A stretch of DNA of 40,938 nucleotides, from NCBI GenBank assembly GCA_949296855.1, contig CASFRN010000067.1:1-40938 (forward strand), read 5' to 3'. The notes under the pieces were generated by a model. It saw nothing but the letters and a program-made list of their open reading frames with translations, ran no database searches and was not told the DNA's origin. The DNA is from an uncultured Bacteroides sp. Lineage in GTDB: Bacteria; Bacteroidota; Bacteroidia; Bacteroidales; Bacteroidaceae. The position numbers and the translations under genes are program-made. Positions 3,322-20,841 of the stretch are shown piece after piece. How positions within the stretch are numbered: position 1 is the first letter of the stretch; each line of letters starts with the position of its first letter.

Positions 3322-4674
3322 ATGAATTTACGGACAATATGCATGGGTACGATTCTATCAGCAGCCATCCCATTTTACGCCCAAAACACCATCGGCGGGA
3401 AAAAATGGACTCTGAAAGACTGCATTGACTATGCACTTGAGCAAAACATCCAATTGCAACAGAACAAGATTTCACTGCAAGAGAGCGAAATCGACATCAA
3501 GGACGCACGGGCCGACCTGTTTCCGAGCCTGTCGTTCAGCACCGGCCACAACATGGTGAACCGTCCTTATCAGGAACAGAGCGCGACGGTAAGCGGAACG
3601 GAAATCATCAGCAGTAACGAGAAAACCACTTACAACGGTAATTACAGCCTCAGCGCACAGTGGACACTTTGGAACGGAGGCAGAAGGCTGAACAACCTGA
3701 AGCAACAGAAAACCAACCGTGACATCGCACGCCTCACCGTCACGGAAACGGAGAACAACCTACAGGAACAGATAGCCCAGCTTTTCATACAGATATTATA
3801 TGCCGATGAATCCATACAAATCAACAAGGGCACATTAAAAGTGAGCGAAGCGACTTATAAAAGAGGGCAAGAACTGTTCGCCGAAGGAAGCATCTCAAAA
3901 GCCGACCTGGCGCAATTGGAAGCTCAGGTAAGCAACGACAAATACCAAGTAGTCACCGCCGAAAGCAGCTTACGCAACTACAAGCTGCAACTGAAACAAC
4001 TGCTGGAACTGGACGGCACGGCAGAATTCAACCTGGAATTGCCCCAACTCGATGATGAAAACGTGATGAAAACGTTGCCTAACCAAGCCGATGTCTATCA
4101 AACCGCCCTTGCCGTCCGCCCCGAAATCCAAAGTGGACGGTTGAGCATCGAAAACGCCAAATTAAGTATCTCCGCAGCCAAAGCGGGATACTATCCCACC
4201 ATCAGCCTGTCGGCATCCAGTGCCAGCACAAGCAACAGCGCTAGCACCAACAACTGGGCACAGCAGATGAAATACGGATGGAACAACATGATTGGAATCA
4301 ACCTGAGCATCCCTATCTTCGACAACCGTCAGAACAAGACCAACGTGCAAAAGGCACGGCTGCAATACAGTACTACCCAATTAGACTTAGTGAATAAGCA
4401 AAAAGAACTGTACAGCACGATAGAAAGCCTGTGGCTGGATGCATTGAACGCCCAGCAACAATATGCGGCAGCCGAAACAAAAGTGAAAAGCAGCCAAACC
4501 AGTTTCGATATGGTGAGCGAACAGTTCAACTTAGGCATGAAGAACACGGTGGAACTGCTCACCGAAAAAAACAACCTGCTGAGCGCCAAACAGGAATTGG
4601 TGCAAGCAAAGTATATGGCCATCCTGAACCGTACACTGTTAGACTTTTATGCGGGAAATAACATCGAATTATAA
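3322..4674 (+). CDS. TolC-family outer-membrane efflux protein
   Basis: The 450-aa protein begins with a signal peptide (about residues 1-20, ending FYAQ). It then shows the duplicated outer-membrane-efflux-protein pattern: long amphipathic helices such as WTLKDCIDYALEQNIQLQQNKI and a second half with the same layout. Proteins of this family form trimeric channels through the outer membrane and periplasm. It is the first gene of an operon with a MacA-like adaptor (15 nt downstream) and MacB-like ABC subunits, so it is the exit duct of a tripartite exporter. The substrate cannot be read from sequence. The start is fixed by the promoter at 3287-3294. Confidence 0.93.
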   Translation: MNLRTICMGTILSAAIPFYAQNTIGGKKWTLKDCIDYALEQNIQLQQNKISLQESEIDIKDARADLFPSLSFSTGHNMVNRPYQEQSATVSGTEIISSNEKTTYNGNYSLSAQWTLWNGGRRLNNLKQQKTNRDIARLTVTETENNLQEQIAQLFIQILYADESIQINKGTLKVSEATYKRGQELFAEGSISKADLAQLEAQVSNDKYQVVTAESSLRNYKLQLKQLLELDGTAEFNLELPQLDDENVMKTLPNQADVYQTALAVRPEIQSGRLSIENAKLSISAAKAGYYPTISLSASSASTSNSASTNNWAQQMKYGWNNMIGINLSIPIFDNRQNKTNVQKARLQYSTTQLDLVNKQKELYSTIESLWLDALNAQQQYAAAETKVKSSQTSFDMVSEQFNLGMKNTVELLTEKNNLLSAKQELVQAKYMAILNRTLLDFYAGNNIEL

Positions 4675-4689
4675 AACAAAACAACTAAT

Positions 4690-5913
4690 ATGAAGAATAA
4701 AAAAACAATCATCATAGTCGCCGCCATCATTGCGGCGATTATCGCAGCGTGTTGGATATTCGGCGGGGCTAAATCCAAAAGCCAAGTCGACTTCGCTACC
4801 GAAACAGTAAAGAGAGGCAATGTAAGCAACTCCATTACAGCCACAGGCACCATCGAACCGGTCACTGAAGTGGAAGTCGGCACGCAAGTGTCGGGCATCA
4901 TCGACAAGATTTACGTGGATTACAATTCAATTGTGAAACAAGGAGAAGTAATCGCCGAAATGGACCGGGTGACCCTGCTTAGCGACCTACAGTCGGCACA
5001 AGCCACCTACAACGGCGCCAAGGCCGAATACGAATACCAAAAGAAACTGTACGAACGTAACCAGAAGCTGCACGAGAAGCAACTCATCAGCGACACCGAC
5101 TACGAACAGTCCACCTATGACTACCAACGTGCGAAGAGCACGTATGAGCAAACTCAAGCCGAACTGTCGAAAGCCGAGCGCAACCTGTCGTACGCCACTA
5201 TCACCTCACCGATAGATGGCATCGTCACCAGCAAAGACGTAGAAGAAGGACAAACCGTAGCTTCCGGCTTCGAGACACCGACCCTCTTCACTATCGCAGC
5301 CGACCTGACCCAAATGCAAGTAGTGGCTGACGTAGACGAAGCCGACATCGCCGGAGTGACAGACAGCGCACGGGTCACATTCACCGTCGACGCTTACCCT
5401 AACGATGTGTTCGAAGGGAAAGTGAAACAAGTCCGTTTAGGCAGCGTGAACAGTAGTTCCAGCAGTTCGACCTCATCAAGCAGCAGTTCGACGGTCGTCA
5501 CTTACGAAGTGGTCATTACGGCCGACAACCCCGACCTGAAGCTGAAACCACGCCTCACAGCCAATGCGACCATTTACACACTGACACGCGAGAACGTGCT
5601 GACCGTCCCCACTAAGGCGTTGCGCTTCACGCCGAATAAAGACATTGCGGGCGGACGCGTCATCCAAGACTGTGCGGGCGAACACAAAGTATGGACTCTG
5701 GAAAACAACACGTTCGTCGCCCATCCCGTAAAGCCAGGACTTAGCGACGGCGCATTCATCGAAGTGGAAGGCATCAGTGAAGGTACAGCCGTAGTGACCG
5801 AAGCCGTCATCAAGAACGCCATGCCCGAAATGGCAGGAAACGATGGAGGCGGCGAACGCAGCCCGTTCATGCCAGGGCCTCCGGGAAGAGACAACAAGAA
5901 AGACAAGAAATAA
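4690..5913 (+). CDS. MacA/HlyD-type periplasmic adaptor
   Basis: A 407-aa membrane-fusion protein. It has an N-terminal membrane anchor (about residues 6-24), a barrel-sandwich lipoyl half (GTQVSGIIDKIYVDYNSIVKQGEVIAEMD), a coiled-coil hairpin (about 95-168), the second lipoyl half (SPIDGIVTSKDVEEGQTV) and beta-barrel domains. Such adaptors join a MacB-type ABC transporter to TolC. Residues 255-267 are a serine-rich run broken by one Thr, between two beta-barrel strands; the codons vary, so it is not a simple DNA repeat. The C-terminus is Gly/Pro-rich and then Lys-rich. It lies 15 nt after the TolC gene and 27 nt before the ATPase. Confidence 0.93.
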   Translation: MKNKKTIIIVAAIIAAIIAACWIFGGAKSKSQVDFATETVKRGNVSNSITATGTIEPVTEVEVGTQVSGIIDKIYVDYNSIVKQGEVIAEMDRVTLLSDLQSAQATYNGAKAEYEYQKKLYERNQKLHEKQLISDTDYEQSTYDYQRAKSTYEQTQAELSKAERNLSYATITSPIDGIVTSKDVEEGQTVASGFETPTLFTIAADLTQMQVVADVDEADIAGVTDSARVTFTVDAYPNDVFEGKVKQVRLGSVNSSSSSSTSSSSSSTVVTYEVVITADNPDLKLKPRLTANATIYTLTRENVLTVPTKALRFTPNKDIAGGRVIQDCAGEHKVWTLENNTFVAHPVKPGLSDGAFIEVEGISEGTAVVTEAVIKNAMPEMAGNDGGGERSPFMPGPPGRDNKKDKK

Positions 5914-14895: not shown

Positions 14896-17379
14896 ATGAG
14901 ATTATCAGAACTGAAAACAGGTGAAAAAGGAGTCATCATCAAGGTGATGGGACACGGAGGATTCCGCCGGCGCATCATCGAAATGGGCTTCATCAAAGGG
15001 AAAACGGTAGAGGTTCTTCTGAACGCTCCGCTAAAAGACCCTATCAAGTATAAGATAATGGGATACGAAATCTCCCTGCGCCGCCAAGAGGCGGAAATGA
15101 TTGAAGTGGTGGGCGAAGAAGAAGCACGTGCTTCGATAAAGGAAACCGAAGTGCTTAACCCCATAGCCGAAGACATTCCCGTATCGGACGAAAAATTGCG
15201 AGAAATAGCGCAAGGCAAGCGGCGCACCATCAATGTGGCACTGGTAGGAAACCCGAATTGCGGGAAAACTTCGCTCTTCAACATCGCTTCGGGAGCGCAT
15301 GAACACGTGGGAAATTATAGCGGCGTGACGGTAGATGCCAAGGCAGGGCATTTCGAGTTCCAAGGCTATCACTTCCGGTTGGTGGATTTGCCGGGCACCT
15401 ATTCGCTCTCGGCATATAGCCCCGAAGAACTTTACGTAAGGAAACACATCATCGACCAGACTCCCGATGTCATTATCAACGTGGTAGATGCGGGAAACTT
15501 AGAGCGCAACCTGTACCTCACCACCCAACTCATTGATATGAACGTGCGCATGGTGGTGGCGCTCAATATGTATGATGCATTGGAACATAGCGGAAACACA
15601 CTCAACTACAAAGCCTTAGGACAATTATTGGGCGTGCCCATGGTGCCTACCGTGAGCCGAACGGGACGAGGCATAGATACCTTGTTCCATGTCATTATCG
15701 GGCTTTACGAAGGTGCCGACTTTATGGGGCAGAAAGAAGAAATACAAGATGAAGCCTTGCGCGAGTTCCGCAAATGGCACGACCAATATGTGCCCGACCA
15801 TAAATTCGGAAGCAAAGACGAAGAAGTACACGAGTCCGTTGACGCCAAAAGCTATATCCGCCACATCCACATCAACCACGGCCCGGAACTGGAACGGAGC
15901 ATCGACGCGGTAAAGAAAGAAATCTGCAAAAACGAAAACATCCGCCACAAATACTCCACCCGTTTCCTTGCCATCAAGCTCTTAGAGAACGATAAAGACA
16001 TTGAGCAACACGTGATTTCCACCTTGCCCAATGGTGCGGAGGTCATCAAGATACGCGACAAGGAAGCCGAACGCATCCGCCAGGTGATGAACGAGGATAG
16101 CGAACAAGCCATCACCGATGCCAAATACGGCTTCATTTCGGGCGCATTGAAAGAAACATATACGGAAAAGAGCCAGGACACCGAAGCCTTTACCCGCGTG
16201 GTAGACAGCATCGTGACCCATAAGATTTGGGGATTCCCTATTTTCTTCCTCTTCCTGTATATCATGTTCGAATGTACCTTCACCTTCGGGGCTTACCCGC
16301 AAGAATGGATTGAGTGGCTGGTAGGAGCTATCGGTTCATTAGCAGAGACTTACATGCCTGCTGGTCCGCTCAAGGATTTGGTTATCGACGGTATCATCGG
16401 AGGTGTGGGAGGCGTCATCGTATTCCTGCCCAACATCCTGTTGCTCTACATCTTCATCTCGTTTATGGAAGATACGGGCTATATGGCACGTGCGGCGTTC
16501 ATCATGGATAAAATCATGCACAAAATGGGCTTGCACGGCAAATCGTTCATCCCGCTTATCATGGGCTTCGGATGCAACGTGCCCGCCATTATGGCTTCGC
16601 GTATCATCGAGAGCCGCAAGGCACGTCTGGTCACCATGCTCATCAATCCGTTGATGTCGTGCAGTGCCCGTCTGCCTATCTACTTAGTATTGATTGGCGC
16701 CTTCTTCCCCAACCGTGCCAGCTTAGTATTACTTTCGCTTTATGCCATTGGCATCTTGCTGGCGGTGCTCATGGCACGCATTTTCAGCAAGTTCTTAGTA
16801 AAAGGCGAAGACGCTCCATTCGTTATGGAACTCCCCCCCTACCGCATGCCTACGGCAAAATCGGTTGCCCGCCATACGTGGGAGAAAGGGGCGCAATACC
16901 TCAAGAAAATGGGAGGCATCATCATGATAGCATCTATCATCATCTGGTTCTTAGGATATTATCCGAACCATAACGCCTACGAAACCACCGCCGAACAACA
17001 AGAGAATTCTTATATCGGGCAAATAGGCAAAGCCATTGAACCGGTTATCGAACCCTTAGGATTCGACTGGAAAATGGGCATCGGGCTTTTATCGGGTGTA
17101 GGAGCGAAAGAATTAGTAGTTAGTACCTTAGGCGTTCTTTACACCAATGAGGAGGACATCGAGAATGTCAATCTCTCCGAACGCATCCCCATTACGCCTT
17201 TAGTAGCCTTCGGCTATATGCTTTTCGTGCTCATCTATTTCCCGTGCATCGCCACGATAGCGGCTATCAAGAACGAATCTGGAAGCTGGAAATGGGCAGC
17301 CTTCGCCGCTTGTTACACCACGGCATTGGCATGGGTCGTATCGTTCCTGACGTATCAGATTGGGAAATTATTTATCTAA
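14896..17379 (+). CDS. feoB: fused FeoA-FeoB ferrous iron transporter
   Basis: An 827-aa fusion. Residues 1-75 are a FeoA SH3-like domain (MRLSELKTGEKGVIIKVMG). Residues from about 112 are the FeoB G-domain, with G1 GNPNCGKTS (119-127), G3 DLPG (164-167), G4 NMYD and G5 SRTG. The helical membrane core follows, with both Gate motifs (CNVPAIMASR and NPLMSCSARLPIYLVL). It imports Fe(II) across the inner membrane under anaerobic conditions. FeoA-FeoB fusion is usual in Bacteroides. The small Cys-rich gene 11 nt downstream completes the operon. No classical Fur box was identified in the spacer. Confidence 0.96.
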   Translation: MRLSELKTGEKGVIIKVMGHGGFRRRIIEMGFIKGKTVEVLLNAPLKDPIKYKIMGYEISLRRQEAEMIEVVGEEEARASIKETEVLNPIAEDIPVSDEKLREIAQGKRRTINVALVGNPNCGKTSLFNIASGAHEHVGNYSGVTVDAKAGHFEFQGYHFRLVDLPGTYSLSAYSPEELYVRKHIIDQTPDVIINVVDAGNLERNLYLTTQLIDMNVRMVVALNMYDALEHSGNTLNYKALGQLLGVPMVPTVSRTGRGIDTLFHVIIGLYEGADFMGQKEEIQDEALREFRKWHDQYVPDHKFGSKDEEVHESVDAKSYIRHIHINHGPELERSIDAVKKEICKNENIRHKYSTRFLAIKLLENDKDIEQHVISTLPNGAEVIKIRDKEAERIRQVMNEDSEQAITDAKYGFISGALKETYTEKSQDTEAFTRVVDSIVTHKIWGFPIFFLFLYIMFECTFTFGAYPQEWIEWLVGAIGSLAETYMPAGPLKDLVIDGIIGGVGGVIVFLPNILLLYIFISFMEDTGYMARAAFIMDKIMHKMGLHGKSFIPLIMGFGCNVPAIMASRIIESRKARLVTMLINPLMSCSARLPIYLVLIGAFFPNRASLVLLSLYAIGILLAVLMARIFSKFLVKGEDAPFVMELPPYRMPTAKSVARHTWEKGAQYLKKMGGIIMIASIIIWFLGYYPNHNAYETTAEQQENSYIGQIGKAIEPVIEPLGFDWKMGIGLLSGVGAKELVVSTLGVLYTNEEDIENVNLSERIPITPLVAFGYMLFVLIYFPCIATIAAIKNESGSWKWAAFAACYTTALAWVVSFLTYQIGKLFI

Positions 17380-17390
17380 GAGATTAAACT

Positions 17391-17564
17391 ATGAACCTAC
17401 AAGATATCCTTGTTTATATCATCGTGCTGCTCTGCGTTGTCTACGCAGGGCGGCACTTCCTGAAGTTCTTTAAGAAGAAAAAAACGGGAGAAAACAGTTG
17501 TGGATGCGGGTGTGCGGGATGTGCAGGATGCCCGAAAGAAAAAGGCAGGAAAGCGGATTTATAA
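17391..17564 (+). CDS. FeoB-associated Cys-rich membrane protein
   Basis: A 57-aa protein: a membrane helix (about 5-20), a basic stretch (RHFLKFFKKKK) and a Cys cluster CGCGCAGCAGCP (38-49), then KEKGRKADL. This matches the FeoB-associated Cys-rich membrane protein family found just after feoB; a role in iron handling or as an Feo accessory is inferred from position. It starts 11 nt after the feoAB stop. The last 11 codons and the bases beyond the stop recur 1289 bp downstream at the end of the DUF1016 gene. Confidence 0.88.
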   Translation: MNLQDILVYIIVLLCVVYAGRHFLKFFKKKKTGENSCGCGCAGCAGCPKEKGRKADL

Positions 17565-17567
17565 ACC
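17527..17567 (+). repeat. direct repeat flanking the nuclease gene, copy 1
   Basis: The 41 bases from gatgcccgaaagaaaaag onward cover the last codons and stop of the Feo-associated gene. They match 18816-18856 at 37 of 41 positions with no gaps, in the same reading frame. Weaker similarity continues downstream to a TAnnTTTG box that lies 61 nt after the first base of the stop codon (62 nt in copy 2). Confidence 0.85.
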
Positions 17568-17622
17568 AATACATCCTGAAAATTAAAGCCTTTAAAAAGA
17601 AGCGTCAAACAAAAGATTTTAT

Positions 17623-17630
17623 TACTTTTG
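17623..17630 (+). promoter_or_regulatory. -7 element of the DUF1016 gene
   Basis: TACTTTTG fits TAnnTTTG and lies 38 nt before the ATG at 17669. A clear -33 is missing. Its distance from the preceding stop is nearly the same as that of the -7 element before the TPR gene (18913-18920). Confidence 0.5.
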
Positions 17631-17668
17631 TTGTCTAATGTTATAATAACGTCGATTCAGCGATAACC

Positions 17669-18853
17669 ATGGAAAAGAAACCAATGATAGTAAATAGCCA
17701 CGATGTGGTTTGTGATGCAGAATATACGATGTGGGTGGAAAACATAAAACAATCTTATCGCTCCGCCCAAGCAAACGCTACCCTAAGGGCCAATTATGAA
17801 AAGCTAAAATGGAATTGGAATATGGGTGGGGAATTAGTTATTCGCAAAGCAGAAGAACGTTGGGGTAGCGGCGTTGTGGAACAAATTAGCCTTGACTTAC
17901 AAGCTGAATTTCCTGGGAACAAAGGACTTAGTGCCGACAATCTATGGGCGATGAAACGTTGGTATTCATTCTATGCGGACAAGATACGCAATGAAAAACT
18001 TGTACGCAGCGTACAAGAATTATACAGAGTTGATAAAGAAGAAAATACATTAGGAATCGTTTCATTCCCTGATATATTCAGCCTTATCCCATGGGGATAT
18101 CATCTCGACATTATTAGATTGACGAACACATTGCCAGAAGCTTTGTTTTATATCAAGAAGGTGATAAATGAAGGTTGGAAGCGACCGGCATTGCAACGCT
18201 ATTTAAAATCCAAGTTATATGATAAACAAGAAGGTGCAATAAGTAATTTCAAAGAACAACTACCTGTACATCAAGCTGAACTTGTACAAGAAATCACAAA
18301 AGAAAATTATGACTTCGGATTTGTAGAACTGCCTCCAGATTATACGGAATTAAATCTTGAAATAGCTTTAGAAAAACATATATCCCGTTTTTTGATGGAA
18401 CTTGGAAATGGCTTTGCGTTTATAGGCAGGCAAAAAGAAATTATAGTAGATGGAGTTAGCCGAAAGATCGACATGCTGTTTTACCATGTGCGCTTACATT
18501 GCTATATTGTTGTCGAATTAAAAGCGGTTAGGTTTGCGCCTGAGTTTGCAGGAAAACTTAACTTTTATGTAAATGCGGTAAACGAAATTTTGCGTGGCAA
18601 AAACGATAATCCCACAATAGGGCTACTTATTTGTAGTGATATGAAACAAACTGAAGTTCGATATAGCTTTAAAGGATTATCAACTCCTATTGGTGTAGCA
18701 ACTTATGACAATGTACAGATTGCCGATATTGAACGTGAATTGCCAAGCATAGAACAGCTTCAACAAAAAATTAAACAATTAGAAATGCAGATAAAGGCTC
18801 ATTCACCAAACAGTCGATGCCCGAAAGAAAAAGACAAAAAGGCGGATTTATAA
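17669..18853 (+). CDS. DUF1016 PD-(D/E)XK nuclease (YhcG type)
   Basis: A 394-aa protein with an N-terminal DUF1016 helical domain (about 18-165; NWNMGGELVIRKAEERWGSG, LSADNLWAMKRWY) and a C-terminal PD-(D/E)XK nuclease domain. Candidate catalytic residues are Asp268 in RKIDMLFYH and the Glu283-Lys285 pair in VVELKA. Relatives occur as solitary genes or near restriction systems, with suspected roles in DNA repair or defence. The locus is lower in GC than feoAB. The final residues CPKEKDKKADL (384-394) are not family sequence but an in-frame copy of the preceding gene's C-terminus, which suggests the gene arrived by an insertion that duplicated its target. Confidence 0.88.
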   Translation: MEKKPMIVNSHDVVCDAEYTMWVENIKQSYRSAQANATLRANYEKLKWNWNMGGELVIRKAEERWGSGVVEQISLDLQAEFPGNKGLSADNLWAMKRWYSFYADKIRNEKLVRSVQELYRVDKEENTLGIVSFPDIFSLIPWGYHLDIIRLTNTLPEALFYIKKVINEGWKRPALQRYLKSKLYDKQEGAISNFKEQLPVHQAELVQEITKENYDFGFVELPPDYTELNLEIALEKHISRFLMELGNGFAFIGRQKEIIVDGVSRKIDMLFYHVRLHCYIVVELKAVRFAPEFAGKLNFYVNAVNEILRGKNDNPTIGLLICSDMKQTEVRYSFKGLSTPIGVATYDNVQIADIERELPSIEQLQQKIKQLEMQIKAHSPNSRCPKEKDKKADL

Positions 18854-18856
18854 ACC
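18816..18856 (+). repeat. direct repeat flanking the nuclease gene, copy 2
   Basis: 37 of 41 bases match 17527-17567. Here the repeat supplies the last codons and stop of the DUF1016 gene. The unit between repeat starts is 1289 bp and holds just that gene. Confidence 0.85.
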
Positions 18857-18912
18857 GGAGTTAATCCTGAGTTAATCTGCGTTTAGCTTTCAAGGAAGTC
18901 AGGTGATTTCCG

Positions 18913-18920
18913 TATCTTTG
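18913..18920 (+). promoter_or_regulatory. -7 element of the TPR gene
   Basis: TATCTTTG lies 17 nt before the ATG at 18938. TTTC at 18888-18891 is a weak -33. Confidence 0.6.
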
Positions 18921-18937
18921 CGGAAACCAAAGACAAA

Positions 18938-20743
18938 ATGAAGATTCATACCCTCTTATATATACTCATCAGCCTGATAATGGCGTACCTGTTTCAAGGA
19001 TGCAAACACGCTACAAAAGAAACACCCTTACCGGAATTAACACAAGCGGAAGCGGTGATGTTCGAGCGTCCCGATAGTGCGCTGCATATCCTCGAAACCA
19101 TGCAAAAGCCTGACGCAAGCCACGGGGAGCAACACGCCTTGTGGTGCCTCTTGGTGACGCAAGCCCAATACAAGCAGAGCTTTACGTTCCATTCCGATTC
19201 GCTTATCCGCATCGCTTACGAATACTACCGCCCTACCGATAATGCCCGGCGGAAAGCCCTATCGGCACTCTACATGGGCAATGTCAACTACGAGCTGAAG
19301 CATATCACGGAAGCCATGAACTATTTTTTAGAGGCTAAAGCGGATATGGAGAAAACCAATGACTACAAGTTGGGCTACTTGGTCATGTCTTCCTTAGGCA
19401 ACCTGTATGTGTACCGCGACCTGACCGATTATGCTTTGGAAACCTTTCAAGAAGCCTACGATTATGCCGTAAAGGATTCTTGCAAGCGGTATGAAATTTC
19501 TTCTTTAAAATATTTAGGCAGAGCGTATGCTGTAAAAGGAAATTACGAGCGTGCCATTCATTCCTACAATCAAGCCATTCAGATACGAGACAGTATACAC
19601 GAAACATTCCATTCGTTAGAAGGCGAGTTAGCAGATGTTTATCTCACTTTAGGAGAATATGAAAAGGCATTGGCTTTAGAAAAACAAGGAATAAAAAACG
19701 ATACTACTTCCGCCCAAGATTATTATGGAATAGGAAAAATTTTTCTCTATTTAGAGAAATATGATTCAGCTTATCATTATTTGAATAAAGCCCTGTATAC
19801 TTCCAATGTATATACGCTTGCAGGAGTGTACGATGCCTTACTATTCCTAAGCCACCAACCTGCTTACCGGAAATATATGGCTGACTTTTGCGATTCTTTG
19901 CTATTTTATCAGGATTCTGTATATGCATTGAATAAAAGTGAAACCATCATTGCCTACAAAGAAAAATACAACCATCAAAAACTTATCAATAAAAACCAAC
20001 GATTAACCTATCAAACTACACGCTTGTTTTTATTGAGTATCATTGCCATGCTCTGCCTGACCGGAGTAATCATTTATTTTTATCTGTATCGGAAAACAAT
20101 GATACGCCGGAAGAATGCCGAATTGAATCGCTTAATCTCACAAGTGAACGACAACAAACGGCTCATTGCCCAAAACAATACCTACATTGCAGAATTGGAA
20201 AGACGAATGGCTGAAAATCAAGAAGCCGCCGAACAAAAGGAAGAGCTACAAGAAAACCTTGCATCACTACAGGAAGAAAACCAAACCCTGCACCAAACCA
20301 ACGAACGGCTGCAAAACGAAATAGCCATACATAAATCAACGCCTAAAACAGACTCGAATACCGAAGAATTAAACCAACTGAAGTCACACAGAGACCAGCT
20401 GTCTACGCTGGTACTCGAAACTCACCCTTATCTCACCGCACTGCATCAAAAGCCCGTATGCCTGAACGATGCGGAACGAAGCCACATCTGCCAATTTACC
20501 GACACGATTTATGCCAACTTCAGCAAACGCTTGCTTACGGCTATTCCCTCTTTAAGCGAATACGAGGTGCTGTTTTGCTGCCTGATAAAACTGCATTTTT
20601 CTGTTAGCGAGATTGCTACACTCTTAGCCATTTCGCCCGCTTCGGTCTCTACTTCCAAATCCCGACTGAAAAAGAAAATCTATACACACCTTAAGCTTTC
20701 TTCCGAAAAAAAGAGCTTCGACAACTGGATTTGGAAGTTCTGA
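18938..20743 (+). CDS. membrane TPR protein with C-terminal HTH
   Basis: A 601-aa protein. The N-terminus carries a lipoprotein-like signal (LMAYLFQGC, Cys22). Tetratricopeptide-like repeats fill about residues 60-320 (e.g. LGRAYAVKGNYERAIHSYNQAI). A membrane helix lies near 360-382 (LFLLSIIAMLCLTGVIIYF), then a long coiled coil (about 390-470). A C-terminal winged or LuxR-like helix-turn-helix (SVSEIATLLAISPASVSTSKSRLKKKI) ends the chain. This is the Bacteroides architecture in which a periplasmic TPR sensor is joined through the membrane to a cytoplasmic DNA-binding domain. The DUF3244 gene downstream is a frequent neighbour. Its ligand and targets are unknown; regulation of the downstream genes is inferred. 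Confidence 0.8.
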   Translation: MKIHTLLYILISLIMAYLFQGCKHATKETPLPELTQAEAVMFERPDSALHILETMQKPDASHGEQHALWCLLVTQAQYKQSFTFHSDSLIRIAYEYYRPTDNARRKALSALYMGNVNYELKHITEAMNYFLEAKADMEKTNDYKLGYLVMSSLGNLYVYRDLTDYALETFQEAYDYAVKDSCKRYEISSLKYLGRAYAVKGNYERAIHSYNQAIQIRDSIHETFHSLEGELADVYLTLGEYEKALALEKQGIKNDTTSAQDYYGIGKIFLYLEKYDSAYHYLNKALYTSNVYTLAGVYDALLFLSHQPAYRKYMADFCDSLLFYQDSVYALNKSETIIAYKEKYNHQKLINKNQRLTYQTTRLFLLSIIAMLCLTGVIIYFYLYRKTMIRRKNAELNRLISQVNDNKRLIAQNNTYIAELERRMAENQEAAEQKEELQENLASLQEENQTLHQTNERLQNEIAIHKSTPKTDSNTEELNQLKSHRDQLSTLVLETHPYLTALHQKPVCLNDAERSHICQFTDTIYANFSKRLLTAIPSLSEYEVLFCCLIKLHFSVSEIATLLAISPASVSTSKSRLKKKIYTHLKLSSEKKSFDNWIWKF

Positions 20744-20841
20744 AAAGCAATGTACAGATTGAACAACTCAATTCACCCATAACATTTTGATTTACAGCAC
20801 TGTTTTTGCTTACCATGTTAAACTGAAATCAAGGTCACTTT

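Follow-up and report, generated by a model that had tools for sequence, protein, structure and literature searches.

A solitary DUF1016/YhcG nuclease gene, probably inserted at the 3' end of a FeoB-associated gene of a Bacteroides sp. with a 41-bp target duplication

IS elements and transposons carry a transposase and terminal inverted repeats, and the target duplication that they leave is usually much shorter than in the events considered here. Free-standing homing endonuclease genes are not expected to duplicate their target and are found at the same site in relatives. Another mode of gene movement, insertion with long target duplication, is said to have been inferred around 2000 from restriction-modification (RM) genes, for which it has reportedly been described by Nobusato et al. 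2000 and Furuta et al. 2010. It is treated for RM genes in passages of PMC3031569, PMC1643837, PMC3154945, PMC4978471 and PMC3874152. According to the passages of PMC3874152, the duplications measure on the order of 100 bp, and individual component genes of some RM systems are apparently mobile. The passage of PMC1643837 treats RM cargo as frequently associated with long target duplication but not as part of its definition. DUF1016 genes are already known as cargo of mobile elements (a passage of PMC4316617). The literature excerpts retrieved contained neither a resolved mechanism for this mode of movement nor a report of solitary DUF1016 genes acquired through it, and no biochemical test of the DUF1016/YhcG family.

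The locus described here lies in a window of 40,938 nucleotides (the whole stretch of Bacteroides DNA that was analysed) and appears to represent an insertion with long target duplication that has a lone DUF1016 nuclease as a new cargo (Table 1). As in the RM cases, a small unit is missing from the empty site of a relative, the target repeats are long and variable and differ by site (here 41, 49 and 125 bp), and no classical mobile element acts as carrier. By contrast, the cargo is a lone DUF1016 nuclease unaccompanied by a methyltransferase, its hosts belong to the Bacteroidales and, in one case, to the Lachnospiraceae instead of Helicobacter, and the right end falls inside a reading frame, the duplicated tail becoming the C-terminus of the protein. 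No match to transposase or integrase families was obtained among the 14 window proteins scanned with Pfam (4 + 10 proteins).

Table 1. Features of the locus, in window coordinates
Feature	Position	Strand	Basis
Fused feoAB gene for ferrous iron transport (left outer flank)	14896..17379	+	Pfam FeoA, FeoB_N, Gate, FeoB_C
FeoB-associated Cys-rich membrane protein gene (target), intact	17391..17564	+	Pfam PF12669, 3.4e-11; orthologs in G026, G021, G018
Repeat copy A, 3' end of target gene	17527..17567	+	Repeat alignment; comparison with G026
Insert, 1248 bp, one gene	17568..18815	+	Missing at the G026 site
Non-coding lead of the insert, with TAnnTTTG-like box (17623-17630, by eye)	17568..17668	+	Unlike the TPR-gene upstream region
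Solitary DUF1016/YhcG PD-(D/E)XK nuclease gene, 394 aa	17669..18853	+	Final 11 codons and stop within copy B
Repeat copy B, in frame	18816..18856	+	Runs on into the right flank as at the empty site
Native TPR-gene upstream region, with TATCTTTG box (18913-18920)	18857..18937	+	Also present in G026, at the empty site
Intact TPR gene (right outer flank)	18938..20743	+	Profile scan

The two copies of the direct repeat, 17527-17567 and 18816-18856, are identical at 37 of 41 positions, with no gap and a spacing of 1289 bp. The codon phase is the same in both copies, and the reading frame in each ends in TAA, at 17564 and 18853, respectively. The repeat, its frame and its spacing had been described in an earlier sequence-only reading and were reproduced by alignment. 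The gene at 17669-18853 is the sole gene between the copies. The repeat is absent elsewhere in its own genome, where a 161-base query around the first copy retrieves two places only. Local alignment between the flanks scores 35.5, against a maximum of 21.5 over 1000 shuffles, and a score of at least 30 is reached by 2 of 1405 mismatched pairs of DUF1016 loci.

Past the 41 bp, the similarity downstream of the copies falls to the level of chance in comparisons with shuffled sequences (local p 0.38, global p 0.32). Likewise, 116 of 198 real upstream regions of the congener G026 match the upstream region of the TPR gene as well as, or better than, the lead at 17568-17668 does. The weaker downstream similarity proposed earlier, and with it a repeat of about 100 bp that includes a duplicated promoter, is rejected by the shuffles and by the real upstream regions. 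TAnnTTTG-type boxes do follow both stops, as had been noted, but their first bases lie 59 and 60 nt past the last base of the stop and not at the 61 or 62 nt first given. The corresponding place in G026 fits the downstream box too, which indicates that this box came with the TPR gene; the equal spacing of the two boxes is, therefore, no evidence for duplication. The proposal that the duplication gave each gene its own promoter fails on the same grounds, since the TPR-gene box also fits in G026 and the two upstream regions are dissimilar.

A search for the empty site was carried out in 61 genomes of the genus, including the window's own (G000), with at most the four best candidates scored in each, and the flanks were found directly adjacent without the nuclease gene in G026 only. 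This congener has feoAB, the Cys-rich gene, the TPR gene and one copy of the repeat, and its feo-associated gene passes through this single copy into the TPR gene (locus L006). By BLAST, window positions 17386-17543 (82% identity) and 18816-20796 (81%) hit overlapping ends of one continuous stretch of G026, to which the end of feoAB (17100-17373) is 83% identical. The joined window flanks align with this stretch from end to end, the upstream region of the TPR gene included, with a single 9-bp gap that lies inside the target gene. An empty site had been suggested as a check in the sequence-only reading, which took the locus for a stand-alone PD-(D/E)XK gene inserted with duplication of about 40 bp of target and sparing of the host gene; G026, with one repeat copy and both neighbouring genes, backs that reading.

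Comparison of copy A, copy B and the G026 copy over the 41 sites shows agreement of all three at 29 sites, whereas at 8 sites A and B agree with each other against G026. Only copy A is like G026 at 1 site and only copy B at 2 sites, and all three differ at 1 site. The agreement of A and B against the empty site suggests that one copy was derived from the other close to this lineage and not from a distant donor, and modestly favours a local duplication. The polarity of the event, insertion at feo, is suggested by the one empty-site genome together with the rarity of the nuclease gene.

The surroundings of the empty site vary among relatives. In G021, a nearer relative with 93% identity over feo, the feo-associated gene is kept and a different TPR gene follows downstream, and in G018 an additional gene stands ahead of the TPR gene. 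These differences in gene order mark the end of the feo-associated gene as a place of frequent order change. The order at this place (loci L005, L007 and L006) is altered differently in G021, in G018 and in the window, and the 3' end of the feo-associated gene may be a rearrangement hot spot.

The protein matches DUF1016_N (E 5.9e-27; 94.9 bits, cut-off 32.8) and YhcG_C (E 6.6e-51; 172.7 bits, cut-off 32.5) in Pfam, and its best matches in PADLOC are the PDC-S02 models (top E 6.5e-118). It thus shares with the DUF1016/YhcG family (COG4804, PF06250; PADLOC candidate PDC-S02) the full two-domain match and the presence of the E, D, E and K residues. The predicted catalytic E-D-ExK residues, E244, D268, E283 and K285, are invariant in 38 chosen full-length sequences and follow the catalytic motif of the family as given in a passage of PMC1189080. 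The YhcG domain is related there to Holliday-junction-resolvase-like PD-(D/E)XK enzymes, and a recombination role for a YhcG-type enzyme is thinkable, no more. A sequence search found no relative of solved structure (best E 0.4). Values of dN against four relatives are 0.10-0.14, while saturation of dS prevented the calculation of a ratio; the protein looks to be under purifying selection.

The nuclease gene differs from its surroundings in composition (GC 37.3 and GC3 31.1, against 49.6 and 61.5 for feoAB) and is sparsely distributed. Among 110 DUF1016 loci fetched from the genus, the sole one above 51% protein identity is that of G050 (79%), which sits at another locus. A family sample of 399 genomes, with at most the four best candidates per genome, gave 7 genomes with a match at E of at most 1e-100, its own included, the matches in the others being 46-80% identical. 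The low GC and the patchy spread indicate a recent arrival of the gene. Ancestral presence at the feo locus followed by precise loss in G026 is very unlikely. Such a loss, if it took place by recombination between the repeats, would account for the single copy in G026, and the adjacent empty site comes from a single genome, the nearer G021 being different downstream. However, the only close relative among the fetched loci of the genus, in G050, sits elsewhere, for another insertion (L103, below) three relatives are without the gene at the site, and the origin of the repeat itself would still need explaining.

The five nearest relatives found (L063-L067) are all at other loci. The DNA that they have in common with the window gene sets in at approximately the start codon and ends 6-69 nt short of the stop, and L063 and L064 have 137-139 bp of upstream DNA in common as well. 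When the lead at 17568-17668 was compared with the upstream DNA of L063 and L064, shuffles gave local p values of 0.01 and 0.018 and global p values of 0.046 and 0.014, respectively. Among 198 real upstream regions, 34 were as good as L063 and 26 as good as L064 (10 for L066, 34 for L067 and 90 for L065), and a shared upstream origin of the lead with L063 and L064 is weak once this comparison is made.

The last residues differ among the window gene and its closest homologs. The right end of the insert falls 38 bp inside the reading frame of the nuclease, whose own stop was cut off by the insertion and whose last eleven codons and stop are given by the duplicated tail. Apart from these eleven borrowed C-terminal residues, the window protein fits the DUF1016/YhcG family throughout.

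We further searched for empty sites at seven DUF1016 loci (the window, L065, L103, L067/G050, L066, L063 and L114), with the best 2-4 candidates scored per genome, by which further empty or filled sites may have escaped; L064, L072, L123, L200 and L053 were left out. The window, L065 and L103 gave positive empty sites. Because L065, L103 and L114 had been picked for having repeats, three of seven is no rate. No informative empty site was found for L063, L066 and L114. In G050, the close relative of the window gene replaced about 1.5 kb of other genes between flanks shared with G003, G004, G005 and G052, and this locus has no flanking repeat.

The L065 protein is 82% identical to that of the window. 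Its gene is flanked by a 49-bp repeat that is present as a single copy in its relative G448, with which the joined flanks are continuous. The repeat copies differ at 4 of 49 sites, and weaker similarity continues past them up to the start codon, the downstream neighbour being another DUF1016 gene. By eye, the duplicated 49 bp (3867-3915 of L065) can fold into a hairpin whose stem is about 15 bp long.

The third insertion, L103, comes from a member of the Lachnospiraceae and carries a DUF1016 gene with an internal stop. Its repeat corresponds to a single 125-bp copy in G622. In two further relatives, too, the flanks adjoin each other and one partial copy is present: the two flank matches share an 81-bp overlap in G643, and G631, whose flank genes are neighbours, matches the repeat region over 78 bp. 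The repeat covers the stretch in which a methyltransferase-like gene, at its end, overlaps the start of the gene that follows (identities by eye), so that the duplication kept both reading frames.

The direct repeats at the three sites (41, 49 and 125 bp) are unrelated in sequence. The inserts extend 101, 85 and 323 bp upstream of the start codon, and their right ends lie at -38, +54 and +21 bp from the stop, respectively. No significant terminal inverted or direct repeats were detected on the three inserts (terminal inverted repeat score p 0.18, 0.83 and 0.29), and the three have no common target sequence or insert end. The right ends of the window and L103 inserts align with a score of 18, above 1000 shuffles; the alignment probably reflects AT-rich coding sequence and was left unused. 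Variable lengths, unrelated targets, variable insert ends and the lack of terminal repeats argue against a transposase, an integrase or fixed-site homing. The insertions share with IS elements and transposons the duplication of the target, but have no transposase and no terminal inverted repeats, and the duplication is longer and variable. They share with homing endonuclease genes the placement of a single nuclease gene between genes, but the sites differ among relatives and the target is duplicated.

The term homing-type, used in the sequence-only reading, does not fit relatives that sit at unrelated sites with different duplicated sequences. Integrative element, offered there as well, does not apply in the usual sense, given the absent integrase, the undefined insert ends and the G050 replacement without a repeat. 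A site-specific element that uses the 3' end of the target gene as its attachment site, recreated on insertion, would account for the restoration of the host gene 3' end by the duplicated stretch, as attachment sites often do. It is, nevertheless, extremely improbable and largely refuted, there being no constant attachment core and no integrase in the 1248-bp unit or the scanned neighbours, while the repeats of the relatives are unrelated in sequence and length and the insert ends vary.

The direct repeats could also have come from a small DNA circle that carried the nuclease gene with target-tail homology from a related strain and was integrated by a single homologous crossover. An earlier excision would have supplied the homologous piece, direct repeats of this length allow circular excision, and the repeat differences would reflect divergence of donor and recipient. 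Indeed, with 4 differences over 41 sites in the window and 4 over 49 in L065, the copies are more divergent than is expected of a fresh duplication. We consider this origin rather unlikely. The copies agree against the empty-site relative in a split of 8 versus 3 in the window (5 versus 4 in L065, hardly different), which points to a local or near-strain source, and 41-49 bp is short for a RecA-type crossover. Moreover, the search for a circle, plasmid or phage that carries a close relative was negative: the matching records, 457 of plasmids and 15 of phages, all stay below 60% identity, and viral contigs yielded no relative. A donor sequence of the insert was not found.

In Escherichia coli K-12, yhcG has no comparable repeat, the longest direct repeat between its upstream flank and the gene or the downstream flank being 17 nt. 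The yhcG locus is variable among the 60 genomes listed of 5,365 with a match. Inside the yhcG frame (L296, 4629-4733), three copies of a 27-nt near-palindromic motif occur with a spacing of 39 nt, and a fourth copy, 89% identical to the reference copy, lies 14 nt past the yhcG stop (5469-5495).

To what extent flanking repeats are a general property of DUF1016 genes was assessed on 118 non-redundant loci, out of 173 with flanks, with 242 neighbouring genes and 195 random genes of G026 and the window as controls. The filters, which retain near, complex, non-paralog flanking repeats, were chosen after the first results. At a score of at least 25, filtered repeats flank 7 of 118 DUF1016 genes; among the controls they flank 3 of the 242 neighbouring and 4 of the 195 random genes, or 7 of 437 when these are pooled. 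The corresponding counts are 9, 9 and 5 at scores of at least 20, and 6, 3 and 4 at scores of at least 30. The pooled Fisher p at 25 is 0.015; it is 0.037 without the window and 0.11 against random genes alone. The unfiltered data show a weak excess (p 0.06-0.14 over the score range 20-30; in a separate comparison at a score of 30, 10 of 118 DUF1016 loci versus 6 of 175 controls, p 0.07). A first run at a score of 18 had given 10 of 103 DUF1016 loci versus 7 of 233 neighbouring genes.

Inspection covered the DUF1016 loci and was not applied likewise to the controls, and it left L114, L117 and L097 doubtful among the seven positives. The filters also removed genuine cases, namely L065 (paralog filter, its neighbour being a DUF1016 gene) and L103 (distance filter). 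L220, which is one of the 118 loci and has the highest raw score, is mostly masked N. By eye, L097 resembles a terminator hairpin and L127 a short repeated motif, and L117 is situated between related kinase genes. The L114 repeat belongs to a dispersed intergenic family: the stretches 3829-3982 and 5280-5440 of L114 hit many places, in both orientations, in related genomes.

Ten control genes with repeats were scanned with Pfam, and the proteins named among them are C-5 DNA methylase, phage integrase, PIN-domain, PLD-like, RhuM and ParB proteins. As defence- and mobility-type genes among the controls also have repeats, the pattern is not specific to DUF1016. Flanking repeats around DUF1016 genes are, at best, modestly enriched and are not diagnostic. 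The search of other DUF1016 genes suggested earlier thus yielded L065 and L103, confirmed against empty sites, but no general property (7 of 118 versus 7 of 437).

These data bear on the question of whether the nuclease spreads itself. Paired staggered nicks 40-125 nt apart near gene ends, repair that copies the gene in and fill-in that duplicates the target would make it a one-gene selfish element, resembling but distinct from a homing endonuclease. The invariance of the PD-(D/E)XK residues across the 38 chosen sequences, the three independent one-gene insertions with duplications and the moderate, filter-dependent excess of flanking repeats at DUF1016 genes are all consistent with such a role. 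We regard it as unlikely because some other genes, those named above, show the same pattern, the target sequence and insert end are not common to the insertions, the G050 relative came by replacement, and L103 has an internal stop and yet a duplication, as expected for a passenger. The broader proposal, that DUF1016/YhcG nucleases are minimal one-gene mobile elements that make widely staggered breaks near gene boundaries and have their own gene copied in, is improbable to a similar degree. If true, a duplication of 40-125 bp would preserve both neighbours and could even provide the new gene with a stop codon or a promoter, and this transposase-free spread would be common to Bacteroidales and Lachnospiraceae.

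The reading that we favour, and hold to be probably correct, is that a horizontally acquired solitary DUF1016 gene was captured at the 3' end of the target gene via break repair, with duplication of 41 bp. The nuclease gene would have been captured at a break whose ends were staggered over a long distance, or by a switch of template while a break was repaired, and fill-in of the stagger would yield the direct repeat with neither transposase nor integrase being used. Selection would retain those events whose duplication spares host genes, and the cargo may be maintained as a defence nuclease; these two steps are the least certain.

The locus illustrates well, in a gut bacterium, a type of gene movement that is known but poorly understood, and two related genes landed alike elsewhere. 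A candidate defence gene can enter a core locus harmlessly in this way, taking its C-terminus from a neighbour. With one 1.2-kb nuclease gene as the whole cargo and empty sites sequenced in relatives, it comes close to the smallest possible test case; it offers defined duplications of 41, 49 and 125 bp and, in the window copy, catalytic residues that appear intact. It would allow one to ask directly whether the nuclease brings about its own capture or is carried along passively when breaks are repaired.

Additional structures were observed at other loci. Long imperfect direct repeats flank a ParB protein gene in L066 (562-2301; 365 aligned bp) and a PIN-domain protein gene in L140 (2089-3468; 115 aligned bp), and both genes are further candidates for insertion with target duplication. 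In L072, the 3' part of the upstream gene (3565-3774) repeats beyond the DUF1016 gene (5194-5310) in blocks of 71 and 45 bp that are 94% and 98% identical, with about 94 bp absent between them in the second copy. Many split DUF1016 matches (PF06250) were found in G027; they break at position 39/40 of the profile, and several of them lie at the ends of contigs. G008 has two adjoining DUF1016 parts near the same place. These splits may reflect an exchange of 5' and 3' halves between DUF1016 genes or assembly breaks at shared sequence.
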